Assembly (NCBI RefSeq): GCF_009184895.1 | Contig: NZ_WESE01000004.1 | Span: 62,001-126,000, forward strand | From: Nostocoides sp. F2B08 | Lineage (GTDB): Bacteria > Actinomycetota > Actinomycetes > Actinomycetales > Dermatophilaceae | Length of the DNA: 64,000 nt | Reading direction: 5' to 3' | Shown: piece after piece, positions 20,848 to 60,404 of the stretch | Numbering within the stretch: the stretch's first letter is position 1 | Layout of the letters: every line of letters begins with the position of its first letter | Made by a program: the position numbers and the translations under genes | Notes under the pieces: generated by a model | Database searches by the model: none | The model's input: the letters and a program-made list of their open reading frames with translations, nothing else | What the model was told of the DNA's origin: nothing

Positions 20848-22065
20848 ATGGCAGAGGACTTCCGCTTCCGCGACATCGCCCTTCCGGCCTACGGTCCCAC
20901 GCTCGTCAACTCGCTCGGCCACGGCGCGATGATGCCCGTGCTGGCGTTGCGCGCCCGCGAGCTGGGGGCGAGCGTCGCGGTCGCGGCACTCGTCGTGGGG
21001 CTCGTCAGCGTCGGCATGCTCATCGGGTCCCTGCCCGCCGGCGCGGTCATCGCCCGGATCGGGGAGCGCCGGGCGCTCGTCGTCGCGGGTGTCCTCGACG
21101 CCCTGGCCATGGCCGCGGCGGCGGTCACGCCGACCGTCGCGTGGCTCGCCCTCGCGGTCGTGGCGAGCGGCATGATGTGGACCGTCTTCCTCATCGCCCG
21201 ACAGGGCTTCATGATCGACGCGGTGCCGTTCCACCTGCGCGCCAGGGCGCTCTCCCTGCTCGGCGGCTCCCATCGGGTCGGACTGTTCGGCGGACCGCTC
21301 ATCGGGGCGGCCGTCATCGCCGCCGACGGCATCCGCGCGGTCTTCCTCCTCGCGGCCGCGTTCTCGCTCCTGGCCGCCCTCCTGGCCCTCACCATGCCCG
21401 ACCTCGGCGCCGAGCGGCGGATCGCCGCCAAGCACGAGGGGTATGCGTCGGTCGCCTCGGTCCTGCGGCGACACCGCCGGGAGATGCTCACGATCGGCGT
21501 CGCCGTCGCCGTCATCGGCTCGTCCCGCTCGATCCGCACCTCGCTGATGCCGCTCTGGGCCGAGCACGTGGGCATCTCCGCGAGCACGACGTCGCTGATC
21601 TTCGCCATGGCCTCGGGGGTGGAACTCCTCCTCGTCTATCCGGGAGGGTGGGTCATGGACCGGTTCGGCCGCTCGGTGACGGCGGTGCCCGTCGTCGCGA
21701 GTGCGGCGCTGGCGTGTCTGCTGCTGCCGTTCGCCGGGACCGTCGCGGCGGTGACGGCCGTCATGGTTCTGCTCGCGGTCGGCAACGGCCTCGGGTCCGG
21801 GGTCGTCATGACGATGGGCGCGGACACCGCGCCGGTGGAGTCGCGCGCCCAGTTCCTCGGTGGGATGCGGCTGTTCGGGGACATCGGCATGACCAGTGCG
21901 CCGCTGCTGCTCAGCCTGCTGACCGCAGCCCTGCCGATCGCCGCGGCCTCGCTCGTGCTCGGCGCTTTGGGGGTGGCGGGGGCCGGGTGGGTCGGGTACT
22001 GGACGAGGCACCTCGACCGGCGCCTCGGGCTGGGCGTGCGGAGGGTGACCGTACGCCGCGACTGA
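20848..22065 (+). CDS. major facilitator superfamily exporter
   Basis: This 405-residue transporter has about 12 hydrophobic segments. The loop-2 motif is GSLPAGAVIARIGERRALVVAG, and its repeat is YPGGWVMDRFGRSVTAVPV. The sequence resembles drug- or sugar-efflux MFS proteins, but no substrate-defining motif was recognised. It is divergent from the GlcD-type oxidase with a short intergenic space. Start ATG 20848 (MAEDFRFRDIALP) lies after a purine-rich GGAGCGGGAGCGAGG stretch; longer open frame upstream overlaps the oxidase and is rejected. Confidence 0.85.
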   Translation: MAEDFRFRDIALPAYGPTLVNSLGHGAMMPVLALRARELGASVAVAALVVGLVSVGMLIGSLPAGAVIARIGERRALVVAGVLDALAMAAAAVTPTVAWLALAVVASGMMWTVFLIARQGFMIDAVPFHLRARALSLLGGSHRVGLFGGPLIGAAVIAADGIRAVFLLAAAFSLLAALLALTMPDLGAERRIAAKHEGYASVASVLRRHRREMLTIGVAVAVIGSSRSIRTSLMPLWAEHVGISASTTSLIFAMASGVELLLVYPGGWVMDRFGRSVTAVPVVASAALACLLLPFAGTVAAVTAVMVLLAVGNGLGSGVVMTMGADTAPVESRAQFLGGMRLFGDIGMTSAPLLLSLLTAALPIAAASLVLGALGVAGAGWVGYWTRHLDRRLGLGVRRVTVRRD

Positions 22066-22095
22066 CCGCCGTGAGCCGGTGGCTGCCGGAGGACG

Positions 22096-23310
22096 CTAGG
22101 CGCTCGCCAGGGCCTTCTCGAGGTCGCCGAGGATGTCGCCGGCGTCCTCGAGCCCCACCGAGAGGCGCAGGATCCCCGCGCCGGGGCGCGCGTCCGGGGG
22201 ACACGGCCGGTGGGTGAGGGCGGCCGGGTGCTGGATGAGCGAGTCCACCCCGCCGAGTGACACGGCGTGGGTAATCAGCTCGACGTGTTCGGCGACCGCC
22301 GCGGCGGAGCCGAAGCCGCCGGAGAGCTCGAACGCGAGAATGGCACCGGGACCGCTCTGCTGACGGCCGATCAGCCCCTGCGGGTCGCACTCCGGGAGCG
22401 ACGGGTGCCAGACCCGCGCGACGGCAGGGTGGGAGCGCAGCGCCGCCGCGACGGCGGTGGCGCTCGCCTGCTGGGCGCGGACCCGGACCGGGAGGGTGGC
22501 CAGACCCCGGTGCAGCAGGTACGCCGCCCACGGGTGCAGGATCCCTCCGGTGATCGCCCGCACCGGGCGGATCCGTTCCGCGGTCGCCTCGTCGGTCGCG
22601 ACCACCCCGCCGAGCGCGTCGCCGTGTCCGCCGATGAACTTCGTCGCCGAGTGCAGGACCAGGCTCGCACCGTGCGCCAACGGGTTCTGCAGGACGGGGG
22701 TGGCGAAGGTGTTGTCCACGAGCAGCGGCACCTCACGTCCGGTGGCCGCGATGGCGTCGACGACGGCGCGGATGTCGACGAGCTCGAGGGTGGGGTTGGC
22801 CGGGGTCTCGAGGACGACGAGCCCGGTGGCATCGGTCAGCGCGGAGGGAACGTCCTCGACGCTCGCGTAGGTCACCGTCGTGCCGAGCAGGCCCGTCGTC
22901 AGGAGGTGGTCGGTGCCGCCGTAGAGCGGCCGCACCGCAACGACGTGTCGGCGATCGGGGGGCAGGGCGAGCAGGACCGCGCTCATCGCCGCCATCCCCG
23001 ACGCGAAGGCGACGGCCGCCTCGGCGCCCTCGAGCGCCGCCAGCCCGCTCTCGAAGCGAGCGACGGTGCCGTTCCAGAGCCGCGCATACACCGGTGTCTG
23101 ACCGGGCAGCGGCGGCGCCCCGCCCGCGAGTCGCTCGTATGCGTCGCCTCCGGCCTCAACCCCCGGCAGGGGGCTGGTGGTCGAGAGGTCGATCGGGAGC
23201 GCGTGCACGCCGAGGTCCGTGAGATCCTCGCGGCCCGCGTGCACGGCTCGGGTGTCTATGGGGGCCAGGGGCGCGCTCGGGACGGGGTGCGAGGTGGGCG
23301 TGACGGACAT
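22096..23310 (-). CDS. trans-sulfuration PLP enzyme (methionine gamma-lyase / cystathionine gamma-synthase family)
   Basis: This 404-residue enzyme of the Cys/Met-metabolism PLP family has VAFASGMAAMSAVLLAL near residue 100, the PLP Lys in LHSATKFIGGHGDALGG, and SLGGVDSLIQHPAALTH near the C-terminus. These fit cystathionine gamma-synthase/lyase or methionine gamma-lyase. A GGAGGT ribosome site precedes ATG 23310. It faces an Lrp-type regulator across a 135-bp region, so it probably breaks down or interconverts a sulfur amino acid sensed by that regulator. The exact reaction cannot be settled by eye. Confidence 0.85.
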   Translation of the reverse strand: MSVTPTSHPVPSAPLAPIDTRAVHAGREDLTDLGVHALPIDLSTTSPLPGVEAGGDAYERLAGGAPPLPGQTPVYARLWNGTVARFESGLAALEGAEAAVAFASGMAAMSAVLLALPPDRRHVVAVRPLYGGTDHLLTTGLLGTTVTYASVEDVPSALTDATGLVVLETPANPTLELVDIRAVVDAIAATGREVPLLVDNTFATPVLQNPLAHGASLVLHSATKFIGGHGDALGGVVATDEATAERIRPVRAITGGILHPWAAYLLHRGLATLPVRVRAQQASATAVAAALRSHPAVARVWHPSLPECDPQGLIGRQQSGPGAILAFELSGGFGSAAAVAEHVELITHAVSLGGVDSLIQHPAALTHRPCPPDARPGAGILRLSVGLEDAGDILGDLEKALASA

Positions 23311-23346
23311 GGCGGACCTCCGATGCGACGGTGCACTTTCCTCCTT

Positions 23347-23363
23347 CAGGATCGCGCATCCTG
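23347..23363. promoter_or_regulatory. candidate Lrp/AsnC operator
   Basis: CAGGAT-N5-ATCCTG is a perfect 17-bp inverted repeat in the region shared by the PLP lyase and the Lrp-type regulator. Its size and position suit an Lrp-family dimer site. A second short repeat ATAA-N6-TTAT lies near 23399-23412, close to the regulator gene. Confidence 0.5.
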
Positions 23364-23445
23364 CGGTCCTGTAGCACTCTGATCGAACAAGTCCTGCCAT
23401 AATCGGTGTTATCCCGCGTATTCTTCGACTCGTGAGAGGTTCGAC

Positions 23446-23934
23446 ATGGATCTGCCGAACAGCTCGGACCCGGTCCCCCTCGACGAGGTCGACCGCGTCA
23501 TCCTCGACACGCTGACAGCGTCGGGACGCCTGGCCAACAACCGGATCGCGGCCAGGGCCGGCGTCGCTCCGTCCACGGCCCTGACCCGGATGCGGGCCCT
23601 CGTCGAGCGAGCGGTGATCCGCCGGTTCACGGTCGACATCGACCTCGGGGCCGTGGGGCGCCCCGTGCAGGCGATCATCGCGGTGCGGCTCCGCTCGCAC
23701 GACCGCGCCCAGATCGCGGCGGTCATGCGGCTGCTGCCGACACTGCCGGAGGTGGTGCAGAGCTTCCACGTCGCCGGCGACGACGACTGGCTCTTGCACG
23801 TCGCTGTCTCGAGCGCCGAGGACCTGCGCGACTTCGTCCTCGACCATCTCACGGTGCACGAAGCGGTCGTCCACACGCGCACGACGCTCGTCTTCGCCCA
23901 CGACCGCGGCCACCCCGGCCCGCTCCCGCGCTGA
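23446..23934 (+). CDS. Lrp/AsnC family transcriptional regulator
   Basis: This 162-residue protein has an N-terminal helix-turn-helix (residues about 12-60: VDRVILDTLTASGRLANNRIAARAGVAPSTALTRMRAL) followed by the RAM/ligand domain (PVQAIIAVRLRSHDRAQI, VVQSFHVAGDDDWLLHVAV). Members respond to amino acids and often control the divergent neighbour. Here that neighbour is the sulfur-amino-acid PLP lyase. Start ATG 23446 follows GAGAGG. Confidence 0.92.
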   Translation: MDLPNSSDPVPLDEVDRVILDTLTASGRLANNRIAARAGVAPSTALTRMRALVERAVIRRFTVDIDLGAVGRPVQAIIAVRLRSHDRAQIAAVMRLLPTLPEVVQSFHVAGDDDWLLHVAVSSAEDLRDFVLDHLTVHEAVVHTRTTLVFAHDRGHPGPLPR

Positions 23935-24034
23935 CCCACCGCCCACCTCTCGCGCGTGGTGCGTTGCACGGTGGTGGGGCCGCTACAGTGCGCCGAACTC
24001 AGTGCACCACACCACACCCGGCGACGCCGACGCG

Positions 24035-27035: not shown

Positions 27036-27968
27036 ATGAGCGACAGCGACGTCACCACCACCGAAGCGGGCCGGGTCGACTCGGTGCCGTCCGGGGCCGT
27101 GGTCGTCGGCATCGACGGCAGCGACCGCGACGAGACCTGCATCCGATGGGCGGCGGGTGCTGCATCCCGCACCGGCCGGGCGCTGCACCTGCTGCACGCC
27201 CAGGACATCGCGGTCGAGCTCGCCGCCGCCAACCCGATCGCGGCCCGCGGCCTCGCGTTCGTGCCCGACCTCGTCCTCGACAGCACCGTCCTCTCGACCG
27301 CGCTCGAGCGCGCCAGGGCCGAGTGGCCCGACCTCGACGTCACCGGCTCCGAACCCTGGATGCACCCGGAGGAGGCGCTGATCGAGGCCTCGGACGACGC
27401 ATACCTGATCGTCGTCGGGTCCAGCCGGATCAGCGGCCTCGAGAGGCTGCTGCTCGGCCGGTCCGCCCTCGCCGTGTCCTTGCACGCCCGGTGCCCGGTC
27501 GTCATCCTCCCCGAAGGCGCCCGCACCGACGCCGAGGGCCCGGTCGTGCTCGGCTTCGACGGAAGCGACGGGTCGCGTGCGGCGGCCGAGCGGGCGTTCT
27601 GGATCGCTGACGTCCGCGGCACCTCGGTCCGCACGGTGACGAGCTGGTATGCGGAGGTCGTCGACGGCTCGGTCGTCACCACCCCTGGCACACCGGCCTG
27701 GGAGCAGGTCGAGGGCGGGTACCGCCGGATGGTCGAGGAGGGGATTGCCGACCTGCGCGAACGGTACCCGGGCGTCGACGTGGACATCCGCGTCCTGCGC
27801 GGCCCGGCCGCCGCGGTTTTGACAAGGGAGGCCGCCGACGCCTCGCTGCTCGTCATCGGCAGCCGGGGCCGGGGTGGGTTCCGCGGCATGCTGCTCGGTT
27901 CGGTGTCGCACAAGGTGCTCGAGACGGCGACCTCGCCCGTCATGGTCATCCGCGGGCCGAAGCGGTGA
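27036..27968 (+). CDS. universal stress protein, tandem UspA domains
   Basis: This 310-residue cytosolic protein holds two UspA folds. The first begins with VVVGIDGSDRDETCIRWAA (residues about 22-40) and ends near VVGSSRISGLERLLLGRSA; the second begins PVVLGFDGSDGSRAAAERAF and ends with the ATP-binding GSRGRGGFRGMLLGSVSHKVLE. The G-x2-G-x9-G(S/T) motif is present in the second domain, so nucleotide binding is likely there. Tandem Usps are typical of dormancy and hypoxia responses in actinobacteria. GGAAGGAG precedes the ATG. Confidence 0.92.
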   Translation: MSDSDVTTTEAGRVDSVPSGAVVVGIDGSDRDETCIRWAAGAASRTGRALHLLHAQDIAVELAAANPIAARGLAFVPDLVLDSTVLSTALERARAEWPDLDVTGSEPWMHPEEALIEASDDAYLIVVGSSRISGLERLLLGRSALAVSLHARCPVVILPEGARTDAEGPVVLGFDGSDGSRAAAERAFWIADVRGTSVRTVTSWYAEVVDGSVVTTPGTPAWEQVEGGYRRMVEEGIADLRERYPGVDVDIRVLRGPAAAVLTREAADASLLVIGSRGRGGFRGMLLGSVSHKVLETATSPVMVIRGPKR

Positions 27969-28011
27969 CGGTCGCTGCCCGGGACCGCGGTCGTCCGGTC
28001 GACCGCCGCTG

Positions 28012-28659
28012 GTGAGACGCGGCGACCGCTTCGAGGGGCACATCGCCGGGGTCGGCACGACGTCCGGGGTGCGGCTCGTCGTCGGGCGCTGGCTCCGTTC
28101 TCCCTTGCCCGCCGGTGAGGGCGGGGCGTTCGCCGACGTCATGGTGGAGCGGGCCGACGGCCACCGGATCCTGCTCGCGCCGAGCGACGAGGTCGCGGAC
28201 TACGTCACGAGCACGTACACCTTCGACGAGGTTCGGGTGGAGCGGGTCGAGGTAACGGTCGAGGGGGACCTCTGGCGGGTGTCGACCCCGTCGTCGACGC
28301 TGTCGTTCACAGTCGGGCGACGGCTCCCCCTGGGCTGGGCGCTGCGGGCCGTGCCGGCCCCGGTGGCGACATCGCCTCGGTGGAGCCGGATCATCGCCCC
28401 GGTGGCCGAACGGCTCGTGCCGGGCGTCCGTACGGTGGGCATGGCACGAGAAGGACGGGTCGAGTACTACGGCGCGACCGACCTGCGGTCCGTCACGACG
28501 GCGTCCGGGGTTCTCGACGGGGAACCACTGGGTTCGCTGGCGCCCATCGACCCACCGTGCCGGTTCGGCTTCTCGTCCACCCCGCCGTGGCCGTCCCTCA
28601 CGACGGTGACGACCACCGTGGAGCATCGCCGACCCAGTCCGGCCGCATCGGCTTCGTGA
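28012..28659 (+). CDS. conserved actinobacterial protein of unknown function
   Basis: This 215-residue protein begins at GTG 28012 with MRRGDRFEGHIAGVGTTSGVRLVVGRW. It lacks a signal peptide or membrane spans. The core FADVMVERADGHRILLAPSDEVADYVTSTYTFDEVRVERVEV is compact and looks like a beta-rich fold. I recognise the pattern as a recurring actinobacterial hypothetical protein but not a function. It sits 43 nt after the universal stress protein. Its stop overlaps by GTGA with the start of a short, apparently truncated reading frame. Confidence 0.75.
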   Translation: MRRGDRFEGHIAGVGTTSGVRLVVGRWLRSPLPAGEGGAFADVMVERADGHRILLAPSDEVADYVTSTYTFDEVRVERVEVTVEGDLWRVSTPSSTLSFTVGRRLPLGWALRAVPAPVATSPRWSRIIAPVAERLVPGVRTVGMAREGRVEYYGATDLRSVTTASGVLDGEPLGSLAPIDPPCRFGFSSTPPWPSLTTVTTTVEHRRPSPAASAS

Positions 28660-28850
28660 CGCCGCGTGTGGTTCGAGCCGGCCGGGTCCTGCCGTTCGAC
28701 CTACCCGCAGCGCGGATCCTGGCCACCTACCCCGTCCCCGACCACCCGCCCCTGGACGTCGCACTCATCGCCGCCATCGCCCAGAGCACCGGATCGACCA
28801 TCGCCACCCGCGGCACCACGCACTTCGAACCCCTCGGTGTCAGCACCGAT
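28656..28850 (+). pseudogene. truncated 5' fragment of an unidentified gene
   Basis: From GTG 28656, which overlaps the preceding stop by 4 nt, about 65 codons show normal host-like C/G-ending codon use (VTPRVVRAGRVLPFDLPAAR to FEPLGVSTD). After about 28850 codon use becomes irregular and the frame runs antisense into the oxidoreductase gene. I read this as the front end of a real gene cut off by rearrangement. The family is not recognised. The interval 28850-28937 shows nothing else. Confidence 0.4.
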
Positions 28851-28937
28851 CGACCAGTGGGGCCAACCTGCATAGCGGCCTTCGGGCCGGCCGTCTTACC
28901 GCCGCGAGTCGACCAGCCTGACGAGCCGCCCAAGCGG

Positions 28938-30770
28938 TCAGCCGACCACCTCGTGGAGATGGACGCCGTTGTCCGCGGCGATTATCTCTGCCGCCTTTTC
29001 GCCGATCATCAACGCCGCAGCGTTTGTGTTGCCGCTGACGACGTTCGGCATGACACTCGCATCGGCCACGCGCAGGGCCTTGATGCCGTGAACGCGCAGC
29101 CGCGGGTCGACCACGTCGCCGATCCGACAGGTCGAGGTCTCGTGGTAGACAGTCAGCGCGTAGTGGCGTGCCAGGTCCTCCAGGAGCGCGTCACTCGGTT
29201 CGGAGCCGGCGAGGTGGCCGTGTGCCTGCGCAAGGTGCGGCGGAATGACTGGCTCACCCAGGCCGCCGCCGGGCCATGCGTTCGCGACCTCGAGGGCCTT
29301 GCGCATCACGGCGACCATGACCTTCACATCGTGCGGGTCATCGAAGTAGTTCAGCTCGATCCGCGGTGGGACCGCGGGGTCTGCGCTGGCCAGCGTGACA
29401 GACCCCTCGGAATGGGGCTGGACGGGATTGGGCAGCACGACCACCTGTCCGCGCGTCGGGTCCAAGAAGGACTGCGGGTCCTCGAAGAACGCGGAAGGCG
29501 GGAGTCGGAAGACGCTCTCCCAGATCGATGGTGTGTAGCCGGTCGCGAGGAATCCGATCTGCGCGTCGTGGGTGTGCTCGTCGCCCAACCCGGTCGAGAA
29601 GAACGCGACAGCGTCGTAGAGAGAGGATGAGGCGAGGCCGCGACCGGTGGTGAACCACTCGGCGATGCGGCGCTCTGCCTCGGCCTTGGCGGCGACGAGG
29701 GGTTCGGGCAGGTCGTCATCGTCCGCGGGGTCGGCCGGCAACGGACCAGCCGGTGCCCGCAACGCGTCCGGCCCAAGGGACATGGCCACCTCGGTCATCG
29801 GCTCGCCGATGCCGTCGGCGGCGAACATCAAGGGTGTGTGTAGATGGTCTTTGAGGTGACGCCCGACGTCCGGGAGGTCGACGATGCAGTCCACACCCAC
29901 GGCGGTGAGCTCCTCGCGTGCCCCGATCCCGGAGAGGAGCAGCAGGTGCGGTGACCCGATGGCGCCTGCGCAGACCACCACCTCGGTGCTCGCTGCCACA
30001 TCCTCCGCCGTGCCGTCCTGCGTCCGGTAGGCCACCCCGGTCGCGCGGACCTCGTCCCCGTCGGCATCGAGCAGGACACGCTCGACGAGCGCGCCGGTGA
30101 CTACCGTGAGGTTCTCCCGGTCCATGGCGGGCTCGAGGTAGGCGTGGAAGGTCGAGCTCCGTCGGCCGTCCTTCGTCGTGGTCTGGAACAGCGAGGCCAC
30201 TCCTTCAGGGCTGAGGCGGTCGCGACCGTTGTAGTCACCCTGCTTCATCCCTACCGCGCCCGCGGCGTCGACGAACTGGCTCGAGGCACGCAGGATGGGC
30301 TGTCGCACCGACACGCCCACCGGGCCGTTGAGCCCGTGCACATCGGGGTCAGCGTGGAGTTCGGGGCTGTCCACGAATCCCTCCGCCTTCCGGAAGTACG
30401 GCAGGACCTCCTCATAGGACCAGCCGTCTGCGCCCGCGGCGGCCCACGAGTCGAAGTCGCCCGGGTGCCCCCGCACGTACGCCATGTAGTTCAGGCCGGA
30501 TGAGCCGCCCAGCATCCGTCCCCGGGGCACCATCATCTGGCCGCCGATCAGCCCCTTGCCCACCCCACCAGGGTCCCCGTTGTACATCCAATCGGTCGCC
30601 GGGTCGTTCTGCAGGCTGGCGACCGCGGCGGGCACCTGCTCCGAGGGCGGCGGCGGTCCGCCTGACTCGAGCAGGCACACCCGGACATCCGGGTCCTCGC
30701 TCAGCCGGGCGGCGACCACGGCGCCCGCCGATCCCGCTCCCACAATCACATAGTCGTACGTCGAGCCCAT
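28938..30770 (-). CDS. GMC-family FAD oxidoreductase (choline dehydrogenase / alcohol oxidase type)
   Basis: This 610-residue flavoprotein has the N-terminal Rossmann motif YDYVIVGAGSAGAVVAARLSE, PROSITE-like GMC segments PRGRMLGGSSGLNYMAYVRG and CAGAIGSPHLLLLSGIG, and the C-terminal catalytic region HYALTVYHETSTCRIG to ADASVMPNVVSGNTNAAALMIGEKAA, including the active-site His and Asn. The family oxidises alcohols such as choline or glucose. An acidic insert DPADDDDLPEP lies mid-protein. No betaine aldehyde dehydrogenase is adjacent, so choline is not assured. It lies at the left end of a patch of broken genes. Confidence 0.9.
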   Translation of the reverse strand: MGSTYDYVIVGAGSAGAVVAARLSEDPDVRVCLLESGGPPPPSEQVPAAVASLQNDPATDWMYNGDPGGVGKGLIGGQMMVPRGRMLGGSSGLNYMAYVRGHPGDFDSWAAAGADGWSYEEVLPYFRKAEGFVDSPELHADPDVHGLNGPVGVSVRQPILRASSQFVDAAGAVGMKQGDYNGRDRLSPEGVASLFQTTTKDGRRSSTFHAYLEPAMDRENLTVVTGALVERVLLDADGDEVRATGVAYRTQDGTAEDVAASTEVVVCAGAIGSPHLLLLSGIGAREELTAVGVDCIVDLPDVGRHLKDHLHTPLMFAADGIGEPMTEVAMSLGPDALRAPAGPLPADPADDDDLPEPLVAAKAEAERRIAEWFTTGRGLASSSLYDAVAFFSTGLGDEHTHDAQIGFLATGYTPSIWESVFRLPPSAFFEDPQSFLDPTRGQVVVLPNPVQPHSEGSVTLASADPAVPPRIELNYFDDPHDVKVMVAVMRKALEVANAWPGGGLGEPVIPPHLAQAHGHLAGSEPSDALLEDLARHYALTVYHETSTCRIGDVVDPRLRVHGIKALRVADASVMPNVVSGNTNAAALMIGEKAAEIIAADNGVHLHEVVG

Positions 30771-30832
30771 CAATCCCACCTCGTTGTGGCACCTCGCCGA
30801 ACGGCGGGGATGGTCTCGCCACGCAACCACAC

Positions 30833-31195
30833 TCACCAAGCGAAAAGCAAGGAGGCCAGTGCCCCGGATTCCCCGACGTACCGAACTCTCTTCACGAGGG
30901 GGGTGCCGCAGGCGCGCGCGATCCCACTCGAAGCGACCATGGCGCGACCTCGGGAGCCGAACCCAAGGAGCGCCCCTGGCCGAGCAACCCAGACCAATGC
31001 GTTGGCGCTGCCACGCTGGAGGCAGACAAGAAGGGCGATGACATCGTCGAACGTCACTCCGTCCCAGAGCCTGGCGATCTCAGCGAAGGTCGTCCTCGTG
31101 CCTTCGTTGACCAGCGTGAGTGTGACCTCACCCGGGGACAGCTCAGTCGGTCCGTCGTGGGAGCAGGGTTCCCTATCCGAGACGGTCAAAGTCAC
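30833..31195 (-). pseudogene. degenerate secreted-protein gene, probably frameshifted
   Basis: From GTG 31195 the frame gives VTLTVSDREPCSHDGP and LSPGEVTLTLVNEGTRTTFAEIARLWDGVTFDDVIALL, resembling small secreted actinobacterial proteins with a CxYDGP...GxVTLTLxN beta-sandwich. The natural N-terminus appears to continue in a different frame directly upstream (SSGDDTAEAA to HGYTIRLG), suggesting a frameshift near 31195. After residue 55 the sequence no longer looks like the family. GC content seems lower than in flanking genes. Confidence 0.4.
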
Positions 31196-31430
31196 CGAGT
31201 CTGATGGTGTATCCGTGGTCGGGTCTCAGCCGGCGCCGAGGAACAGGGTACGCAGCCGCCTCGGCGGTGTCGTCTCCGCTGCTCGGGTAGACACCCGCCG
31301 TTGTCGCAGTCGACTCGTCGCACATGCTGTTCGACCGCGTGGGCGGAATTGACCGGTTGTACTGGAACAGATACTCGACCGTGGGGGAGCCGACCAGTCC
31401 GGTGGGGCCGGTGACCTGGACGGCACTCAC
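31173..31430 (-). pseudogene. 5' remnant of an NmrA/SDR-type gene joined to other sequence
   Basis: The first 23 codons read MSAVQVTGPTGLVGSPTVEY, the glycine-rich NAD(P)-binding start of an NmrA-like or epimerase protein, and overlap the MarR stop by ATGA as a true gene would. The fold then breaks off; the remaining residues include the N-terminal part of the adjacent degenerate secreted protein in another frame. This looks like a deletion joining two genes. Confidence 0.5.
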
Positions 31431-31858
31431 GGCCGCGCCCCGACCCGGCTCAACAGCTCGGCCAGATGCGTCAGTTCGCCGTCGCTGAGATCCTTGAAGC
31501 TCGGCATCAATCGTCGGACGACGCCTCTCTCGAAGTCGGCTACCCGCGTCCGCTCGGCCTCGGTCAGCTGCAGGATGCGTGAGCGGCGATCGTGGGGGTG
31601 GGGCACCGACTCGACCAGGCCCGCTGCCCGCAGCCCGTCGACAACCTGGGTGACGGCGCCACGGGTGATGCCGAGCGTCGAGGCCACCTCGCCCGGTGTG
31701 ACGACCCGTCGGGAATGGGCGAGGAGGAACAGCACCGACAGCTGGCTCGCGGTCAGGGCGACACCCTCGAACGGCGTGCGCTGTTCGGCCGTGATGCTTC
31801 GACTGAGCGCGACCACCTCGGCCAGGACCCCTCCCAACAGTTCTTCACGGTCGGCCAT
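31427..31858 (-). CDS. MarR family transcriptional regulator
   Basis: This 143-residue protein has a typical MarR winged helix: LTASQLSVLFLLAHSRRVVTPGEVASTLGITRGAVTQVVDGLRAAGLVESVPHPHDRRSR, with the recognition helix near residue 68 and the DRRSR wing. Flanking helices would form the dimer interface. It is 3 nt after the NmrA-type gene and shares its strand, so both are likely one operon under the operator at 32497-32523. MarR proteins usually respond to phenolic or oxidant ligands. Confidence 0.9.
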   Translation of the reverse strand: MADREELLGGVLAEVVALSRSITAEQRTPFEGVALTASQLSVLFLLAHSRRVVTPGEVASTLGITRGAVTQVVDGLRAAGLVESVPHPHDRRSRILQLTEAERTRVADFERGVVRRLMPSFKDLSDGELTHLAELLSRVGARP

Positions 31859-31861
31859 GGG

Positions 31862-32494
31862 TCAGTTGGACAGGAACGGCATCTGGTGGACGAACGTGCG
31901 GTCGTCCACCTGGGTGAGGATGAAGTCAGCCAGGTCGTCACGGCTGATCGCGGTGCCGGTGCCGACACCGACCCACCCCTGCCGATAGGTGCCGCGCCCA
32001 GGCTCCTCGGTCAGCCGCGGGCCCCGAATCACGGTCCAGTGCAGCCCAGAGGCCCTCAGCACCTCCAGATGACCCTGTGCATCGGCGAGCACATGTCCGG
32101 ACAGGGTCCTGAGCAGGAACCGGATGACATGGTCGGCGACCTTCGGCCGGTCGTGCGGGTCGCGCAGGCCGCCTCCGGACAACGTGACGATGCGGCTCAC
32201 GCCGGCTGCCTGCATCGCCTCGACGATGATCCTCGTCCCGTCCGTCTGCAGGGTCCTCGGCGAACCCTTCACCTGGCCGAACAGGCTCAACACCACGTCA
32301 GCGCCGGCGACCACCTCCGCCACAGCAACAGGATCCAGCACGTCACCATGGACGACGGTGAGGTCCGGGTGCTCACAGTTCAGCCTCTCCGGGTCACGAG
32401 CCAGCGCACGCACCTCGTAACCGGCCGCGAGCGCGCGGTCGAGGACACGGCGGCCGGTCTTGCCTGTGGCCCCGAACAGAGCGATCGTCGTCAT
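31862..32494 (-). CDS. NAD(P)H-binding NmrA/SDR-type protein
   Basis: This 210-residue protein has the Rossmann motif MTTIALFGATGKTGRRVLDRAL and VVHGDVLDPVAVAEVVAGADVV, then VSRIVTLSGGGLRD and LRASGLHWTVIRGPRLTEEP. This matches atypical short-chain NAD(P)-binding proteins (COG0702 type), many of which act as redox sensors or quinone/flavin reductases. The active-site Tyr-Lys pair of classic SDRs is absent. It heads an operon with the MarR gene. Confidence 0.87.
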   Translation of the reverse strand: MTTIALFGATGKTGRRVLDRALAAGYEVRALARDPERLNCEHPDLTVVHGDVLDPVAVAEVVAGADVVLSLFGQVKGSPRTLQTDGTRIIVEAMQAAGVSRIVTLSGGGLRDPHDRPKVADHVIRFLLRTLSGHVLADAQGHLEVLRASGLHWTVIRGPRLTEEPGRGTYRQGWVGVGTGTAISRDDLADFILTQVDDRTFVHQMPFLSN

Positions 32495-32496
32495 GT

Positions 32497-32523
32497 CACT
32501 AGTTTAGCCACTAAATCATAGTG
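32497..32523. promoter_or_regulatory. candidate MarR operator
   Basis: Nested inverted repeats lie just before the NmrA-type start: TTTAG-CCA-CTAAA (32503-32515) inside CACTA (32497-32501) and TAGTG (32519-32523). AT-rich palindromes of this kind are usual MarR sites. The position 2-29 nt ahead of the start codon suits autorepression. Confidence 0.55.
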
Positions 32524-33065
32524 CTCAGTCGTACCGGAACGGACGCGAGGCTGCTGACATCACCGGTGCTGACGTTCTTCAGGTCATCGACCGGGCGCAG
32601 CGCCAAGCCGGTCAGGTGTCGACCTATGCGACCGCCCTCGTGCCCGACGATGAGGCGGCTCAATTTCGCAAGCCGGGGCCCGGACGAAGAGTCATCCGGC
32701 TGATTGGCTGCGATGGCAACGGCAACGCCCTCGGCGCGGGTCTCCGCGCGCGCTGCGACCTCCACCGCGTCGACGGTGTACGCGTCCTGCCGCCAGCGCC
32801 GTTCGACCTCGTCGGCGACGACGTCCAGGTCCGGGACCTCCCGGTCACGGCGGGCGGCGTCGACGGCAAGGTTGTGCAGGATCCGGTGCAGCCATGTCGC
32901 CAGCGAAGACTCCGCACGGAATGTGCCGGCGCTTTGCAGTGCCCTGGTCAGGGTCTCTTGCACCAGGTCCTCGGCGCGGCCGGGGTCGCTGGTCAGAGAC
33001 CGGGCATAGCGCAGCAGCCCCGGCATCTCGGGGACCAGGCGGTCCCCGAGATCCGTGACGTCCAT
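32511..33065 (-). pseudogene. ECF sigma factor lacking region 4
   Basis: Residues about 1-75 are a normal sigma region 2: PGLLRYARSLTSDPGRAEDLVQETLTRALQ, then FRAESSLATWLHRILHNLAVDAARR. The linker follows (VADEVERRWRQDAYTVDAVEVAARAETRAEG). At the point where region 4 with its -35-binding helix-turn-helix should begin, the sequence becomes unrelated (VAIAANQPDDSSSG onward) and ends in an AT-rich segment. The plus strand across 32560-32710 carries a different coding-like stretch (ITGADVLQVIDRAQRQAGQV), so a foreign fragment has probably replaced region 4. The factor is unlikely to recognise a -35 element. Confidence 0.6.
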
Positions 33066-33319
33066 GCCGGCCAGGGTAGCGATGGTGCCCTACCGGCCAC
33101 CGGCTCGCGGGAGCGCCGGCGAGCACCGCTGGTGCTGATACCCAGCAGCCGGTACAGCGGGCAGAACCCGACCGTCGCCGTCGCGAGCAGAACCACGGCC
33201 AGGACGAGCAGAACCAGCCCAAGTCCACTGGTCACGCCGGTCACCAACGCCCACACGAGAGCAGCCACACCCAGCACCGCCCGAGCGGCCCGGTCGACGG
33301 TTCCAACATTGCGATTCAT
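32993..33319 (-). CDS. small two-helix membrane protein, DUF2892/YgaP-type
   Basis: The first 65 residues match the DUF2892 inner-membrane family: MNRNVGTVDRAARAVLGVAALVWALVTGVTSGL, then a second hydrophobic segment and GFCPLYRLLGIST. The conserved MN-N-G-x-D-R-xxR and GxCPxYxxxG pattern is complete. The C-terminal 40 residues run past the usual end and overlap the truncated sigma gene by 73 nt, suggesting the stop was altered. Such proteins sometimes carry a rhodanese domain; none is present here. Confidence 0.75.
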   Translation of the reverse strand: MNRNVGTVDRAARAVLGVAALVWALVTGVTSGLGLVLLVLAVVLLATATVGFCPLYRLLGISTSGARRRSREPVAGRAPSLPWPAWTSRISGTAWSPRCRGCCAMPGL

Positions 33320-33554
33320 GATGTCCTCCACAGGGGGATCGGTTGAGACGAACACCCCATAGACGCACCACACCCATAAAGGGATACATCACCGAGGTGA
33401 CGTTGATGTGGCTGATCGGTTGCCGCGCGCGTCATCATCCCGAGGCGTCACCTCGACCAACGCCGTGTCCGGACGCATACGAGGTCCACGTCCCGATGGC
33501 CGGCGTCACCGGTCGCCCGCCCTCCACTGAGGGTGGTGCCGGCATCAGACCAAC

Positions 33555-34811
33555 TCAGGGACCGGCCGGCGTGACCCGCAGAACCTTGTCGTTCTCCCCG
33601 TTGGAGGTCGTGACGTACACGGCGCCGTCGGGGCCGAGCCGGGCCGCCCGCAACCGGCCGAACTCGTCGTCCAGCTCCTCGGGCACGGACACCTCGGCGA
33701 CCTCGCCGCCGTCGTCGAGCGTGAGCAGGACGGCCTTGGCTCCGCGGAGGGCGGTCACGAGGAGGGCGCCGTCCAGCGCTCCCCACTGCTCGCCCTCGAG
33801 GAACGCCGCCCCGCACAGTGCCTCGGTCATCCCACCGGTCTGCCACACGGCGGGCACCGCGTCCGGGAACCGCTCGAGATCGGTCATCGGCACCGACTCG
33901 TCGTAGCCGCCCACCTCGCCGCCCTGCGACGGGTCCCACCCGTAGTTCCCCCCGGCCACGATCCGGTTGACCTCGTCGTTCACGTTGGGTCCGTGCTCCG
34001 CCGTGTAGATCTCGCCCGTGCCCGGGCGCACCGTGACGCCCTGGATGTTGCGGTGGCCGTAACTGAGGACATAGCGCTCCCGCTCGTCCGCCGAGTCGAG
34101 GAAGGGGTTGTCCGGAGCCGGCTCACCCGTCGAGAGGTCGAGCCGCAGGACCTTGCCGCCGAGGCTCGTCAGGTCCTGAGGCACCGCCCCGTCCGCGATG
34201 TCGCCCGTCCCGACGACGAGCATGCCGGCGGCGTCGACCGTGGGCCGGCAGCCGGAGTGACGCCCGGATCCGGTCGGGATGCCGGTGAGCAGGTCGCGGA
34301 CGCGCTCGGCGGAGCGGGCGTCCTCGGCGAGCCGCCAGGTGACCAGGCGGATGTCGACCGGGTCGCCGCCCTCCTGGTAGTTCATGCACACGGTGAACTC
34401 GCGGCTGGTCGCGAAGTCCGGATGGACGACCATGCCGAGCAGACCCCCCTCGCCGGAGGCGAACACTCCCGACAGGTCGGCCTCCACCCGGGACACGGTC
34501 GCCCCGGGGGAGGTCGACGAGAGGTGGCTGATCCGACCGGACCGCTCGGTCACCAGGGCTCCGCCGTCCGGGATGAACCCGATGTCCCACCCGTGCGCGA
34601 GGCCCTCCGCGACGACCTCGACCTGCAGCGCCGGCACCTCGCCCACGGGCGGGACCGTCACAGAGCCCCCCGGCTGCGCAGAGCCGGACGCCGTCTGCGG
34701 GGGGATGGGCACCTCTCCCGGGCCAGCGTCCCCGCCTCCGGCGCACGCCGCCAGCGCGGTCGCCGCGAGCACGGCGAGAGCCGCAGGGACGGATCTGGGC
34801 GAGCGTCGCAT
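33555..34811 (-). CDS. lipoprotein PQQ-dependent sugar dehydrogenase (soluble aldose dehydrogenase type)
   Basis: This 418-residue exported protein has a signal peptide with lipobox LAAC (Cys about residue 23), then a Pro-rich linker and a six-bladed beta-propeller of the GSDH/Asd family: GLAHGWDIGFIPDGGALVTERSGRI, GEGGLLGMVVHPDF, VLSYGHRNIQGVTVRPGTGEIYTAEHGP and GGNYGWD. These are the segments that line the PQQ and calcium site, including the His of YGHRN. It should oxidise aldoses at the outer membrane face. No PQQ biosynthesis gene is in the window. The interval 33320-33554 shows no other gene. Confidence 0.88.
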   Translation of the reverse strand: MRRSPRSVPAALAVLAATALAACAGGGDAGPGEVPIPPQTASGSAQPGGSVTVPPVGEVPALQVEVVAEGLAHGWDIGFIPDGGALVTERSGRISHLSSTSPGATVSRVEADLSGVFASGEGGLLGMVVHPDFATSREFTVCMNYQEGGDPVDIRLVTWRLAEDARSAERVRDLLTGIPTGSGRHSGCRPTVDAAGMLVVGTGDIADGAVPQDLTSLGGKVLRLDLSTGEPAPDNPFLDSADERERYVLSYGHRNIQGVTVRPGTGEIYTAEHGPNVNDEVNRIVAGGNYGWDPSQGGEVGGYDESVPMTDLERFPDAVPAVWQTGGMTEALCGAAFLEGEQWGALDGALLVTALRGAKAVLLTLDDGGEVAEVSVPEELDDEFGRLRAARLGPDGAVYVTTSNGENDKVLRVTPAGP

Positions 34812-55699: not shown

Positions 55700-55973
55700 A
55701 GTGCGTCCTCGTTGACGTAGTGGTGGCACCAGCCCGTGCGCGACTAGCAGGGTGAACGTAGCCGCCACACGGCACCGCACTCACTACCCCTCGCCGTCGC
55801 CTGCGGCCGGTGGGAGGGCGCGCGCGCCGAGCGGTCTGCGCGTCGCGGTGAACGGCACCGCGAGCGGTCGGTCCGACGAGGGCCGACCGTCGGGCGCCCG
55901 AAAGCCCGCGCTGCGCAGTCTCCGTCGGCCCGGCACCTGTCGCGGTGGCCGATGGCGCCCTAGGGTGGCTGAC

Positions 55974-56411
55974 ATGCCAGCAGTTCCCCGCCGCCGCATG
56001 CACCCTGGCCGCAAACGCATGCTCTGGGCGTCCATCGCTCTCTTCCTCGGCGCCTTCCTGCCCTGGATGTACACCCCTCTGGGCACCGTGTCCGCCATCG
56101 GAGCGCTGAGCGATCTCATGCTGGACGGCCAGCCCGGCGCGTGGATCCTCTACGCGTCGTTCGCCGCCCTCGCCGCAGGCGTGGCCCCGTGGCGGTTGTT
56201 CTCCGTGGTCAACGGCTTCATCGTCGCAGTCGTCGCCGTCGGCCTGCCGGTGTACCACCTCCTTCGGATGTGGAGCCAGGTCGGGTTCGCCGGCTGGATG
56301 CCCGGCCCGGGGGTCGTCCTCTCCATCGCCGGCGGGGTCCTCTGCGCGATCGGTGCGCGCGAGCTCCTGACCCTCACCGCGGAGCCCGCAGAAGCCGCCG
56401 TCAGAGCCTAG
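55974..56411 (+). CDS. four-helix membrane protein of unknown function
   Basis: This 145-residue protein has a basic N-terminus (MPAVPRRRMHPGRKRM) and about four membrane segments: WASIALFLGAFLPWMYTPLG, ILYASFAALAAGVAP, FSVVNGFIVAVVAVGLPVYHLL and VVLSIAGGVLCAIGA. Small proteins of this layout are common in actinobacteria but I cannot name a function. It is convergent with the methyltransferase 7 bp away. The interval 55700-55973 contains no clear gene. Confidence 0.7.
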   Translation: MPAVPRRRMHPGRKRMLWASIALFLGAFLPWMYTPLGTVSAIGALSDLMLDGQPGAWILYASFAALAAGVAPWRLFSVVNGFIVAVVAVGLPVYHLLRMWSQVGFAGWMPGPGVVLSIAGGVLCAIGARELLTLTAEPAEAAVRA

Positions 56412-56417
56412 GAACCG

Positions 56418-57209
56418 CTAGCCGCCATCGACGCCGGACGCCGCCAGGCGCTCGGCGACGACTGCGAACTTGCGCATCCGTCCCGCACCCAGCCACTCCG
56501 CCCAGAGCCGGTGTGAGTCGACCAGGCCCGCCACCGCGTCCCGGTCGGGACCGGGCGGCACGGTCGCGAGCAGGGTCGCGTAGGACGCAGCCAGGGCGCG
56601 GGCCGTGTCGGCGTGGCTCCGAGTCCAGTCCTCTGTCCAGACCGTCCTCAGGCCCAGCTCCTCGAGCGCCGAACCGAGATCGTGGAGAGTCACCGGCCAC
56701 ACGGTCTCCGATGCCGGCATGCGCTCCCGCTCGAGCCCATTCAGAGGGGGGCCCTCCTCGACGGTGAACACGAACCGCCCGCCCCCGTGGAGCGCCGAGG
56801 CGATCGCCTGCAGGAGGACGTCCTTGGCTCGGAAGGCCAGCATCGTCTCGAGGAGGACGACGACGTCGAACCGTCCCGCCGGAAGCGGTGGCACCCGGGC
56901 CACCTCGAAGTCGGCTCTGAGCCCCGCTGAGGCCGCGCCCTCCCTGGCGAGGGCGATGGAGTCGGCGTCCGCGTCCACGCCGAGGTATTGGCACTCGTAG
57001 TCGCCGACGAGCAGGAGTCCGGGCCCGGCGACTCCGCAGCACAGGTCCACGACGCGGGTGCCGGCGACGATGCCTCCGTGGTGGGCCAGCGTGCGGATCT
57101 GGCGAGCCGTCACGAAGCTCTCCTGTCCGACGAACTCGCCGGGCGGAAAGGCGACCCGACGGGCCTCCCGCAGGGCCTCACCCAGCGGAGCCGTCCCAGC
57201 GGTCGTCAC
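56418..57209 (-). CDS. SAM-dependent methyltransferase, end of the envelope/pterin-type cluster
   Basis: This 263-residue class I methyltransferase has motif I VVDLCCGVAGPGLLLV (residues about 56-71), motif II YLGVDADADSIALARE, post-II FEVARVPPLPAGRFDVVVLLETMLAF, and VFTVEEGPPLNGLE. The acceptor is unknown; the fold resembles sarcosine/glycine-type or lipid methyltransferases. GTG 57209 overlaps the upstream fusion-gene stop by 4 nt, so it is the last gene of the run that starts beyond the right edge of the window. Confidence 0.88.
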   Translation of the reverse strand: MTTAGTAPLGEALREARRVAFPPGEFVGQESFVTARQIRTLAHHGGIVAGTRVVDLCCGVAGPGLLLVGDYECQYLGVDADADSIALAREGAASAGLRADFEVARVPPLPAGRFDVVVLLETMLAFRAKDVLLQAIASALHGGGRFVFTVEEGPPLNGLERERMPASETVWPVTLHDLGSALEELGLRTVWTEDWTRSHADTARALAASYATLLATVPPGPDRDAVAGLVDSHRLWAEWLGAGRMRKFAVVAERLAASGVDGG

Positions 57210-59689
57210 CGTCCGCCCTCCGGTTCGGAGTAGGTCGTCAGGAACCGGTCCCGGAACTCGTCCATAGACAAGACCGGCGCGTCGCCCGACGGACGGAGTC
57301 CCGCCTCCCAACTCCAGCCGTCGATGCGCTCCAGCACCGCCGGGTCGTCGGCGATGACGGTCACCGGCACATCCCGGTTGCCACCGAAGCCGCTGACGAT
57401 CGTGCCGGGCTGATGGTCACCCACGAGCAGGACGACCATCCCGTCCCCCTCGTCTCGGATGAAGTCGAGAACGGTCCGCAGGGAGTACTGCAACGCAGAC
57501 CGGTATGCGTCCGGCACCTGGTCGCGGTCGCTCCACAGGTCGGCGGCCGACGTGGCCTCGGCGCGAATCGACTCGAAGACGGATCCGTCGCCGAGGTCGG
57601 AGGGATCGACGGCGGTGGGCAGCGGGGCCCACGGTCCGTGGCTGGAGGTCAGGGCGACATGGGCCATCACGGGCGGCCGGGTCGGGTCGGTCAGCTCCTG
57701 GCGCATGAACGAGGTGAGAGCGAACTGGTCGGGCATCCCCGAGAAGCCGAAGCTCGGGCCCGCGTAACCGAGGTTCGTGCGGTCGTAGACGGTGTCCACG
57801 TCGTAGAACCGCTGGCCCTCGGGCCATGGCTCCCGGTTCGAGGGCAGCACGGCCACGGTTCGCCACCCGTTCCGGGCGAAGATAGACGTGATCGTGCTGC
57901 GTGAGCTCGAGAGCACCCGCTCGTAGCGCTGCTGGTCGTCGACCCAGAGCCCGGACATGAGCGACGCGTGGGCGAGCCAGCTGCTCCCTCCGAACGTGGG
58001 CGAGGTCAGGTAGGCGCTCCTGGCGCGATATCCGTCGGCAGCCAGCTCCTCGGTGCCGGCGTCGAGCAGCGCACGCACCGGCGCCATGTCGGGTCCCTCG
58101 AGCGCGGCCCGGCCGTAGCTCTCGACGAAGACGACGACGACGTCCTTGCCTTGGAGAGCCGACAGCTCGCCGCTCGCCGGCTGCCGGAAGGCGTCGTCCG
58201 CGATGGCACGTTCGAACCGTCGCTGGTCGCGGATGGCATCCACCGTGGCCGTGACCTTGTCGACCGCGAACCGGCCTCCGTCGACCGAGGCGACCGAGCC
58301 GCCACCCGGTTCCAGGCGGATCCCCGTAGCGGCGAGGACGACCCACGCCACCGCCAGTGCGAGCACGACACCGGCACCGGCACGAGGGCGTCGGGTGAGC
58401 ACGCGGACGAGGCGCGCAGCGGCCAGAGGGACACCGACGAGCGCGACCACGGCCACCAGGCCCGCGCCCAGCAGCGCACCTCGGGCCGCCCATGGACCGG
58501 CCGACTCCCGGACGAAGTCCAGACCGGACCCCAGCAACGCGAGGTCGGTGACCACGGTGAAGGGCCGGTCCAGCACGGCGAAGGCGCCGATGTCGAGGAC
58601 CTTGAGGACGGCGATCAGGCCGAGGAGGGCGCCGGCGACCCCGGAGAACAGCCGAGCAGACCGCGCGGAGCGCGATGCCAGCACGAGCACCAGACCGGCC
58701 ACCACCAGGGCCTCGACGGGCAGCCGGGCGAAGGCGAGCGGGGTGATGCGATCCGGTCGGGTCGGCGCCAGCAGCGCGAACCACACGACGACAGCGGCAA
58801 GGACGGCGAGGCCAGTCCCGACGACTCGCGCGAAAGCCGTGGTGCGTCGCGGCGTCTGCGCGGCCGAGTCGACCTCCTCGGCTCGTCTCCGCCACAGCCA
58901 CACGACGTCGCGACCGAAGGACTCGGCCAGCAGTGCGAGCGCGGCGAGCACGACGGCGCTCCTGGTCCACGGAGGGAGAAGGTCGATGAGAGCGATGACG
59001 AGCCCGACACCGACAGCAGCCGTGACGATCTTGCGCCAGTAGCGGTACGGGAGGGGACGCCGCATCCACGGCAGCAGGATCCCGGCCAGCGCGAAGACGT
59101 ATCTCGCGAGCCCTGCGACGACGACCCACCACCCGAGGACGGAACCGACCGCCACGCTGAGCACGAGGATGAGGAAGGCGTCGACCTCGCCGTCGAGTCG
59201 AGCGCCCAGGGTCGTCGCCGTCCCGGTCCGCCTCGCGAGCCATCCGTCGACGGCGTCGAGGCCGAGGGCGGGGATGGCCAGGACCAGGATCGCGGGGGTC
59301 ACGGGGTGGCCGGCGATGAGCTCGGCCGTCAGGGCCGCCACGCCGCAGGCCAGGACGGCTCGGCCCACGGTGACGCCGTCCGCGGGCCCGAGCCCGGAGC
59401 TACCGGCCCTGGACGCGGCTCGGGCGAGACCGACGCTCAACGCGACCCCGCATACCGATCCGATGACGAGCGCGACCGGGGCCAGGCCCACGAGGCGGGA
59501 GAGTGCGGCGAGGAGGACGGTGAGGGAGACGAGCCCGAGCGTGATCGTGAGCGCGACCGGCATCCGCCGCCGAGGGACCCGCCGGCCGGTGCGCACCTCG
59601 GCGACCCGGCCGGCGTCGACGGACTCCTGTGCCGTCACGTCGGCCGACACGTCATCAGCTCCCTGGTCTCTCGATTCACGTCCAGCCAT
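57206..59689 (-). CDS. fused CDP-alcohol phosphotransferase and alkaline-phosphatase-superfamily membrane enzyme
   Basis: This 827-residue protein joins two enzymes. Residues about 100-270 are a CDP-alcohol phosphatidyltransferase with a complete active site: Asp145, Asp148-Gly149, Ala152-Arg153, Gly162, Asp166 and Asp170. Residues about 290-480 add several membrane helices. The C-terminal part (from about 515) is a sulfatase/phosphoglycerol-transferase-type domain outside the membrane, with metal-site residues in VFVESYG, the nucleophile region TFGGSSWLAHASLMSG, His of SSHGPW and Asp-His of VGDHQPG. Together they suggest making and transferring a lipid-linked phospho-alcohol to an extracellular acceptor. 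ATG 59689 overlaps the reductase stop by 14 nt. Confidence 0.85.
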   Translation of the reverse strand: MAGRESRDQGADDVSADVTAQESVDAGRVAEVRTGRRVPRRRMPVALTITLGLVSLTVLLAALSRLVGLAPVALVIGSVCGVALSVGLARAASRAGSSGLGPADGVTVGRAVLACGVAALTAELIAGHPVTPAILVLAIPALGLDAVDGWLARRTGTATTLGARLDGEVDAFLILVLSVAVGSVLGWWVVVAGLARYVFALAGILLPWMRRPLPYRYWRKIVTAAVGVGLVIALIDLLPPWTRSAVVLAALALLAESFGRDVVWLWRRRAEEVDSAAQTPRRTTAFARVVGTGLAVLAAVVVWFALLAPTRPDRITPLAFARLPVEALVVAGLVLVLASRSARSARLFSGVAGALLGLIAVLKVLDIGAFAVLDRPFTVVTDLALLGSGLDFVRESAGPWAARGALLGAGLVAVVALVGVPLAAARLVRVLTRRPRAGAGVVLALAVAWVVLAATGIRLEPGGGSVASVDGGRFAVDKVTATVDAIRDQRRFERAIADDAFRQPASGELSALQGKDVVVVFVESYGRAALEGPDMAPVRALLDAGTEELAADGYRARSAYLTSPTFGGSSWLAHASLMSGLWVDDQQRYERVLSSSRSTITSIFARNGWRTVAVLPSNREPWPEGQRFYDVDTVYDRTNLGYAGPSFGFSGMPDQFALTSFMRQELTDPTRPPVMAHVALTSSHGPWAPLPTAVDPSDLGDGSVFESIRAEATSAADLWSDRDQVPDAYRSALQYSLRTVLDFIRDEGDGMVVLLVGDHQPGTIVSGFGGNRDVPVTVIADDPAVLERIDGWSWEAGLRPSGDAPVLSMDEFRDRFLTTYSEPEGGR

Positions 59690-60404
59690 CTCCCGCCGTC
59701 TCGGTGTCGAACCGGTCGGAGAGCGCGTAGCGCAGCAGCACCACGTCACCGAGGCGGCAGACGTCCGCCAGGCGGGCGCGTCGGTCACGGTTCCATGGGA
59801 AGTCCCCGTCACCGACCACGCGCGGAGCGCGCGAGTCGCCGACGAAGAAGGGGGCGATGACGACCTGGAGCTCGTCGGCGAGACCTCCCGTGAGGAACTG
59901 GGTGTGCACGGCCTGCCCACCCTCGACGAGGAGCCGCCGCACCCCCCGGGCGGCGAGGTCGGCGCTGACCGTGGTCATGCTCGGAGCCGATCCGGCGTCG
60001 ACGACGGTCGCCACCTCGCCCAGTTCGCGGCGGAGCCGGCCCGCGGAGGCGGAGGCGCAGTACACGAGCTTCTCGGCGTCTCCCGAGGCGAAGAATGCCG
60101 CGGTCGGGTCCAGCGAGGAGTGCCGGGTGACCGTCACCTTGTGCGGTGACGCCGGACGGCCCTCGGCGACCCTCTGGGCTCGCCGTGCCTCGCCTCGCAC
60201 GACGAGACGCGGGTTGTCCGTGCGGACCGTGACGGCACCGACGAGAATGGCGTCGCAGCTGGCGCGGACGGCGTCGACCCGGTCCAGGTCCTGGGCGTTG
60301 GACAGGACCAACCGCCTCTTCGTGCGGTCGTCGAGGTATCCGTCGAGCGACATGGCGCAGCTCAGCACCGTGTAGGGCAGGTCAGCGTCGGGCAGGTCAG
60401 GCAC
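59676..60404 (-). CDS. RibD C-terminal-type reductase (dihydrofolate-reductase fold)
   Basis: This 242-residue protein belongs to the RibD_C/pyrimidine-reductase family: LSCAMSLDGYLDD at the N-terminus, DAILVGAVTVRTDNPRLVVRG (substrate/NADPH site), VVDAGSAPSMTTV, and RRLLVEGGQAVHTQFL. RibD reduces the ribose of a GTP-derived pyrimidine to ribityl in flavin synthesis. Here it has no deaminase half and no rib neighbours, so it likely acts in a side pathway. Its start overlaps the flippase stop by 8 nt. Confidence 0.9.
   Translation of the reverse strand: MPDLPDADLPYTVLSCAMSLDGYLDDRTKRRLVLSNAQDLDRVDAVRASCDAILVGAVTVRTDNPRLVVRGEARRAQRVAEGRPASPHKVTVTRHSSLDPTAAFFASGDAEKLVYCASASAGRLRRELGEVATVVDAGSAPSMTTVSADLAARGVRRLLVEGGQAVHTQFLTGGLADELQVVIAPFFVGDSRAPRVVGDGDFPWNRDRRARLADVCRLGDVVLLRYALSDRFDTETAGDGWT

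Follow-up and report, generated by a model that had tools for sequence, protein, structure and literature searches.

A mosaic of gene fragments and whole genes in the gap between two convergent backbone genes of Nostocoides sp. F2B08

Results

The patch is a mosaic of abutting blocks

We examined a patch of 4936 bp (~4.94 kb, positions 28626-33561) within a 64,000-nt stretch of the actinomycete Nostocoides sp. F2B08 (assembly GCF_009184895.1, contig NZ_WESE01000004.1, positions 62,001 to 126,000 of the forward strand). This whole stretch is called the window, and all positions are counted from its first letter. The patch lies between two convergent backbone genes. Its limits were set by comparing the window with 58 genomes, its own included, and by refining the matches locally: backbone homology reaches 28625 on the left, within the final codons of an uncharacterised gene, and resumes on the right at 33562, where a glucose/sorbosone dehydrogenase gene has its 3′ end. 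What lies between is a mosaic of at least six blocks, five of which have intact relatives in other contexts, the sixth, a lipoprotein-like remnant, having one weak relative. An earlier note, written from the sequence alone, had described 28656-33319 as broken genes marking past recombination. That interpretation is supported, the block being absent from the three congeners compared and its parts being found whole elsewhere in other contexts. The four fragments that the note listed belong to the inventory; it missed a fifth, from a hypothetical gene (32555-32724, plus strand), and the division into at least six blocks. The genes encoding a GMC oxidoreductase, an NAD(P)H-binding protein, a MarR regulator and a DUF2892 protein look whole, with near-complete Pfam domains, as the note had held of its GMC, MarR/NmrA and DUF2892 genes.

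The first block (28677-28918, plus strand) comes from the 3′ end of a vapC (PIN) toxin gene, of which roughly the last 55-60 codons and some downstream bases are present, and is a pseudogene. Position 28656, which had been taken for the cut-off 5′ end of a gene, leads instead into this piece. Its DNA is 83% identical to genome G078 and to contig C22 of the strain's own genome. Relative to these whole homologues the fragment is truncated: the C22 gene encodes 139 amino acids (aa) with a PIN domain and stands beside a FitA-like antitoxin gene, and the G078 gene is also whole. Some plasmid matches to the piece are annotated as VapC. An LDDAL-like motif is common to the six vapC copies compared, and in the patch copy its second aspartate, which we take to be one of the PIN acidic residues, is a valine. 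The branch leading to the fragment carries 3 synonymous and 9 nonsynonymous changes, and the sister branch 5 and 3; on these small numbers, given without a significance test, selection on the fragment looks relaxed. An IS110-type transposase domain (Pfam DEDD_Tnp_IS110) occurs near the strain's own whole vapBC pair on C22 (locus L014, 5409-7701).

The second block (28922-30834, minus strand) holds a whole GMC oxidoreductase gene (28938-30770) and upstream DNA, and is 86-87% identical to G198 and G172; in G172 the homology extends to 30874. Relatives at 79-87% DNA identity occur in at least 13 of 186 genomes of the family, and at 70% in at least three more, in a DNA search with the GMC, vapC and sigma sequences that scored two candidates per genome and in which absences are no proof. 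The ratio of nonsynonymous to synonymous substitution rates (dN/dS) was 0.11-0.15 against six of eight loci and 0.23-0.32 against the two more distant ones, with 92 synonymous and 48 nonsynonymous changes on the patch branch and 41 and 30 on that of G198. The GMC gene is under purifying selection. Read by eye, the genes flanking it in G198 are seemingly unrelated.

The third block (30875-31364, minus strand) is a lipoprotein-like remnant with a broken frame. An 84-aa stretch (30974-31225) matches a 168-aa open reading frame (ORF) of G506, with 23 of 58 residues identical (40% over 58 aa), after which the remainder of the G506-like sequence is no longer in the same frame, in agreement with the proposal of a broken secreted-protein gene. 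The start of the G506 ORF looks lipoprotein-like by eye. Among the 395 other genomes searched, G506 was the only one to match the stretch at E 0.001. At the DNA level 47 of 185 other family genomes matched the remnant, none over more than about 50 bases (best E 2.4e-5), and for its 120-aa ORF there were four matches, all marginal (E 0.003-0.007).

The fourth block (~31365-32515, with homology extending to ~32515-32528) is an operon on the minus strand. It comprises a whole gene for an NAD(P)H-binding protein (31862-32494; Pfam NAD_binding_10, 3.3e-43), which is 76-79% identical in aa to Agromyces and Microbacterium loci L082-L085, a whole MarR-family gene (31427-31858; Pfam MarR_2, 3.1e-15), and an NmrA-family gene that comes third in the operon and has lost its body, its first 22 codons (31365-31430) being all that remains. 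The start of an NmrA gene without its body had been noticed at 31430, and its 22 residues do match the intact 287-aa NmrA protein of G055 (NmrA by Pfam) at 14 of 22 positions, whereupon the homology stops. Twelve operon loci were compared, using the G055 protein as NmrA query and counting its own locus among them. The whole three-gene order is present in seven of them (G055, two Agromyces, one Microbacterium, one Salinibacterium and two Demequina), and the other five gave no NmrA match. These operons have the same first two genes and the same start of the third as the patch, but their third gene is whole, whereas in the patch it is gone after 22 codons. The NAD(P)H-binding protein was the sole block protein searched against the wider genome contigs.

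The fifth block is an internal fragment of a hypothetical gene (32555-32724, plus strand), 88% identical to an ORF on contig C9 of the same genome; a relative in G178 matches over 94% of the protein. Against the C9 copy, pairwise dN/dS was ~1.2 in the fragment's own frame over 56 codons, so small a number of sites on which selection looks relaxed. The surroundings of the C9 copy (L013, 2172-10725) include genes for a GmrSD-type restriction endonuclease and a DUF5615 PIN-like protein and are possibly an accessory region.

The sixth block, on the minus strand and ending at 33369, joins a partial gene for an extracytoplasmic function (ECF)-type sigma factor (32737-33065) to a whole gene for a DUF2892 (YgaP-like transmembrane) protein (33071-33319; Pfam PF11127, 8.5e-21). 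Over 32737-33369 it is 84% identical in DNA to G156. The sigma part comprises region 2 in the first 109 codons. Homology ends at 32737, and the ORF runs on to 32511, the antisense of the hypothetical-gene fragment forming part of its end. As had been proposed, region 4 is lacking: Pfam recognised region 2 alone, and in the best relative, the 256-aa protein of G156, region 4 and a zinc finger are present. The fragment is thus truncated relative to whole homologues, and the ORF does not combine regions 2 and 4 as a working ECF sigma factor does. Its region 2 branch carries 13 synonymous and 5 nonsynonymous changes, that of G156 carries 11 and 5, and 15 further changes were not placed. One may imagine that a region-2-only protein has been kept, with a new C-terminus from the antisense of another gene's fragment, as a competitor or partner regulator together with the DUF2892 protein; we regard this as very improbable. 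The DUF2892-sigma pair is whole in loci L023, L048 and L054. On contig C4 of the strain's own genome (L015, 6368-6820) a further copy lacks most of DUF2892 and part of sigma, so that, the patch pair being cut, neither of the two copies seen in the genome is intact.

The blocks have different relatives, mostly found apart from one another

The blocks directly abut: vapC runs to 28918 and GMC begins at 28922, and the hypothetical fragment runs to 32724 with sigma beginning at 32730-32737. In the loci where each block has its relatives, tblastn found the proteins of other blocks in none of the 18 GMC loci (17 places, since L002 and L020 overlap), none of the 10 vapC loci and none of the 4 sigma loci, the flanks available being mostly ~1.5 kb. 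The nearest relatives differ as well. They are G198 and G172 for GMC, G156 for sigma, Agromyces, Microbacterium and G055 for the operon, G078 and the strain's own genome for vapC, and the own genome for the hypothetical fragment. Synonymous distances to the nearest relative were 0.45 for GMC, 0.64 for sigma, 0.27 for vapC (own copy) and 0.11 for the hypothetical fragment; such unequal values fit several arrivals, without being proof of them.

The mosaic might alternatively have been built elsewhere, on a plasmid, on another element or in an unsampled relative, and have entered in one piece before losing its mobility genes. The single insertion point, between 28625 and 33562, agrees with such an entry. 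Against it, a plasmid or phage origin found little backing: the best plasmid place among those listed covers 13% of the patch, no plasmid record covers 80%, and one phage record gave a 100-bp match. Moreover, two neighbouring blocks occur together in none of the donor-type loci examined except L088, where the arrangement is different. We therefore hold entry in one piece to be unlikely. The exception, one of the twelve operon loci, is on a Demequina contig from a metagenome-assembled genome, where a match to part of VapC, covering 24% of the protein (L088, 4981-5531), lies ~100 bp after the MarR gene, near the contig end.

The assembly being a draft in 45 contigs, we also considered that unrelated pieces had been wrongly joined in it. 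This would need seven wrong junctions in one contig whose surroundings are collinear with the congeners. In addition, the matches in the strain's own genome are only 73-88% identical, which makes them separate copies. We give an assembly artefact scarcely any credence.

The flanks are conserved and the gap between them is variable

To the left, the host backbone comprises a universal stress protein gene (27036-27968, plus strand; Pfam Usp, 1.9e-44), 83% identical in DNA to G001 and adjoining the dehydrogenase gene in G003 and G024, and the uncharacterised gene (28012-28659, plus strand, start codon assumed, within an ORF of 27874-28659), 77% identical in aa to G002, for which no Pfam family was matched. 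The latter has no stop codon of its own here, its frame continuing past 28625 to a stop at 28657-28659, and the G002 gene has its own stop directly after the end of the homology. To the right stands the dehydrogenase gene (33555-34811, minus strand; Pfam GSDH, 1.7e-72), 81% identical to G001. Short sequences lie at both junctions. The 51 bases of 28626-28676 had no match among the loci compared, and for 33370-33561 no source was found in the 186 genomes searched, the matches apart from itself being of at most 63 bases (best E 1.1e-4).

As a control, we looked for other gaps in the congener matches over 20001-55717, with 40 candidates scored per genome and with non-collinear and short rows omitted, such as a 67% G001 match at 22108-23256. 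Five gaps exceeded 300 bp. The patch, at 4936 bp, is by far the longest; 22046-24027 follows with 1982 bp, and the other three measure 317-335 bp. The gap at 22046-24027 is a second stretch of ~2 kb without a collinear congener match. Among the matches listed, none from the congeners falls in 55718-60000; beyond 55717 the G002 contig ends after 1.3 kb and that of G001 continues for 5 kb without a match. As both contigs continue there, a gap of similar size may lie in that region.

We then compared the slot between the two backbone genes across the family, where the dehydrogenase gene was matched in 60 of 186 genomes (own included). Thirty slot loci were analysed, from 29 of the 59 other genomes, chosen by score and contig extent, and from G020 for the left-hand genes. 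In 17 of them, the three congeners included, the stress-protein or uncharacterised gene lies within ~3 kb of the dehydrogenase gene, which makes them comparable. In the remainder, the left gene is ~6.9 kb away (G015), the dehydrogenase gene stands alone (11 loci) or the left genes alone are present (G020). The gap ranges from 28 to 2448 bp in the 17 comparable loci and is at most 279 bp in six. It measures 28 bp in G024. In all three congeners both sides are kept and the block is absent: G001 has 935 bp with one unrelated Rce1-like gene, G002 has 279 bp, and in G003 the stress-protein gene lies 90 bp from the dehydrogenase gene. A 306-aa gene, whose apparent likeness to DUF559 endonucleases was not borne out by Pfam, which gave no family, occupies the slot in seven of the 17 loci (G004 among the carriers) and also in G015. 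Other occupants are an RDD-family gene in G078, with a relative in G079, a 147-aa ORF in G187, and transposases in G181 (with an integrase core) and G186 (IS481-type). Read by eye, these transposases (L142, 9580-12027, and L147, 10569-12008) seem to occupy the loop of a long inverted repeat, one that resembles a two-way terminator and has uninterrupted arms in G004 (L019).

None of the nine block proteins was found in the gaps of the 17 comparable loci (tblastn, E 1e-3), and the 30 loci as a whole gave a single match, to a distant relative of NmrA (29%) that lies beyond the gap in G183. Neither the congeners nor the 17 loci showed the same gene order with the fragments as whole genes, an arrangement that would have spoken against recombination. 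These observations bear on the possibility of an ancestral block that the congeners have since lost by deletion. The presence of GMC relatives at 79-87% identity in at least 13 of 186 family genomes could be taken in favour of such vertical loss, but the emptiness of the gap in the 17 loci and the occurrence of the blocks elsewhere in other contexts leave it a negligible probability.

Composition and mobility genes

An apparently lower content of guanine and cytosine (GC) had been noted for 30780-31430. The figure is indeed lower (65.6% against 70.6% for the window) but unremarkable, 4.5% of 650-bp positions being as low or lower. The island as a whole has 68.2% GC, where stretches of the same length average 70.5%, and 6.3% of positions are as low. 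As evidence for a foreign origin the GC anomaly is weak, and the lowest-GC kilobases of the window are near 54 kb, at an ORF that presumably encodes a membrane transporter. Consistent with the earlier impression, nine ORFs scanned with Pfam and eight with PHROGs yielded no family of transposases or integrases.

Discussion

We consider it likely that foreign DNA arrived stepwise at this locus and was joined illegitimately in a tolerant gap between two 3′ gene ends, and that decay followed. The gap between the 3′ ends of the two convergent genes would have been a tolerant landing place, where DNA of several different origins, which probably came in a series of events, may have been joined regardless of gene boundaries or strand. 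Horizontal arrival, its several steps and joining by illegitimate recombination are what we infer. A Ku-domain gene is present in the genome (family match over its cut-off), making end joining possible. The outcome would be the present arrangement, with partial vapC, NmrA, lipoprotein, hypothetical and sigma genes beside GMC, NAD(P)H-binding, MarR and DUF2892 genes that are whole and may still work. Insertion between gene ends would spare promoters and reading frames, which we propose as the reason for the variability of the slot.

Several points weigh against stepwise arrival from outside or lower our confidence in it. For the vapC and hypothetical pieces the strain's own genome contains close copies, so they may be internal duplications and not imports. 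The relatives identified are sampled genomes and not proven sources, and the spread in distances may stem from sampling and rates. The search for boundary repeats gave short or imperfect pairs and none that links the two ends of the patch, and no joining mechanism is thereby shown. Region 2 of the sigma gene bears no sign of relaxed selection, which means that its truncation is recent or that it remains in use. The congeners number three, all drafts of 290-410 contigs, this species is represented by one strain, and the gap control is limited to 20001-55717. Finally, when the island was compared with the other slots by tblastx, weak matches appeared in 12 slots unfiltered and 6 filtered (best E 2e-8 over 87 aa); blastn gave none, and the tblastx matches are presumably composition effects.

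Integration hotspots are variable slots between conserved genes, and the present slot resembles them in having the same neighbours with different contents in each genome, including a transposase in two. It differs from them in that no integrase or end repeat was found in the patch, transfer RNA genes not having been searched for. Likewise, of the features by which genomic islands are recognised, the patch shows absence from congeners with the flanks kept and relatives in other lineages (weakly for the lipoprotein), and no integrase, transposase or attachment repeats were found in it. Prokaryotic pseudogenes left by failed horizontal transfer are well described (Liu et al. 2004, PMC522871). The likeness to that account lies in broken foreign genes between backbone genes; the difference is that the patch packs fragments of different origin and whole genes into one slot, two of the pieces having copies in the strain's own genome.

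The patch is therefore a tidy, ordinary example of a known process and not a new kind, and by itself it leaves existing knowledge unchanged. For annotation it carries a warning, the 184-aa 'sigma factor', NmrA and secreted-protein ORFs here being chimeras or remnants. It also offers a compact, well-resolved record of a bacterial chromosome gathering fragments in a convergent-gene gap, with whole relatives for five of the six blocks.

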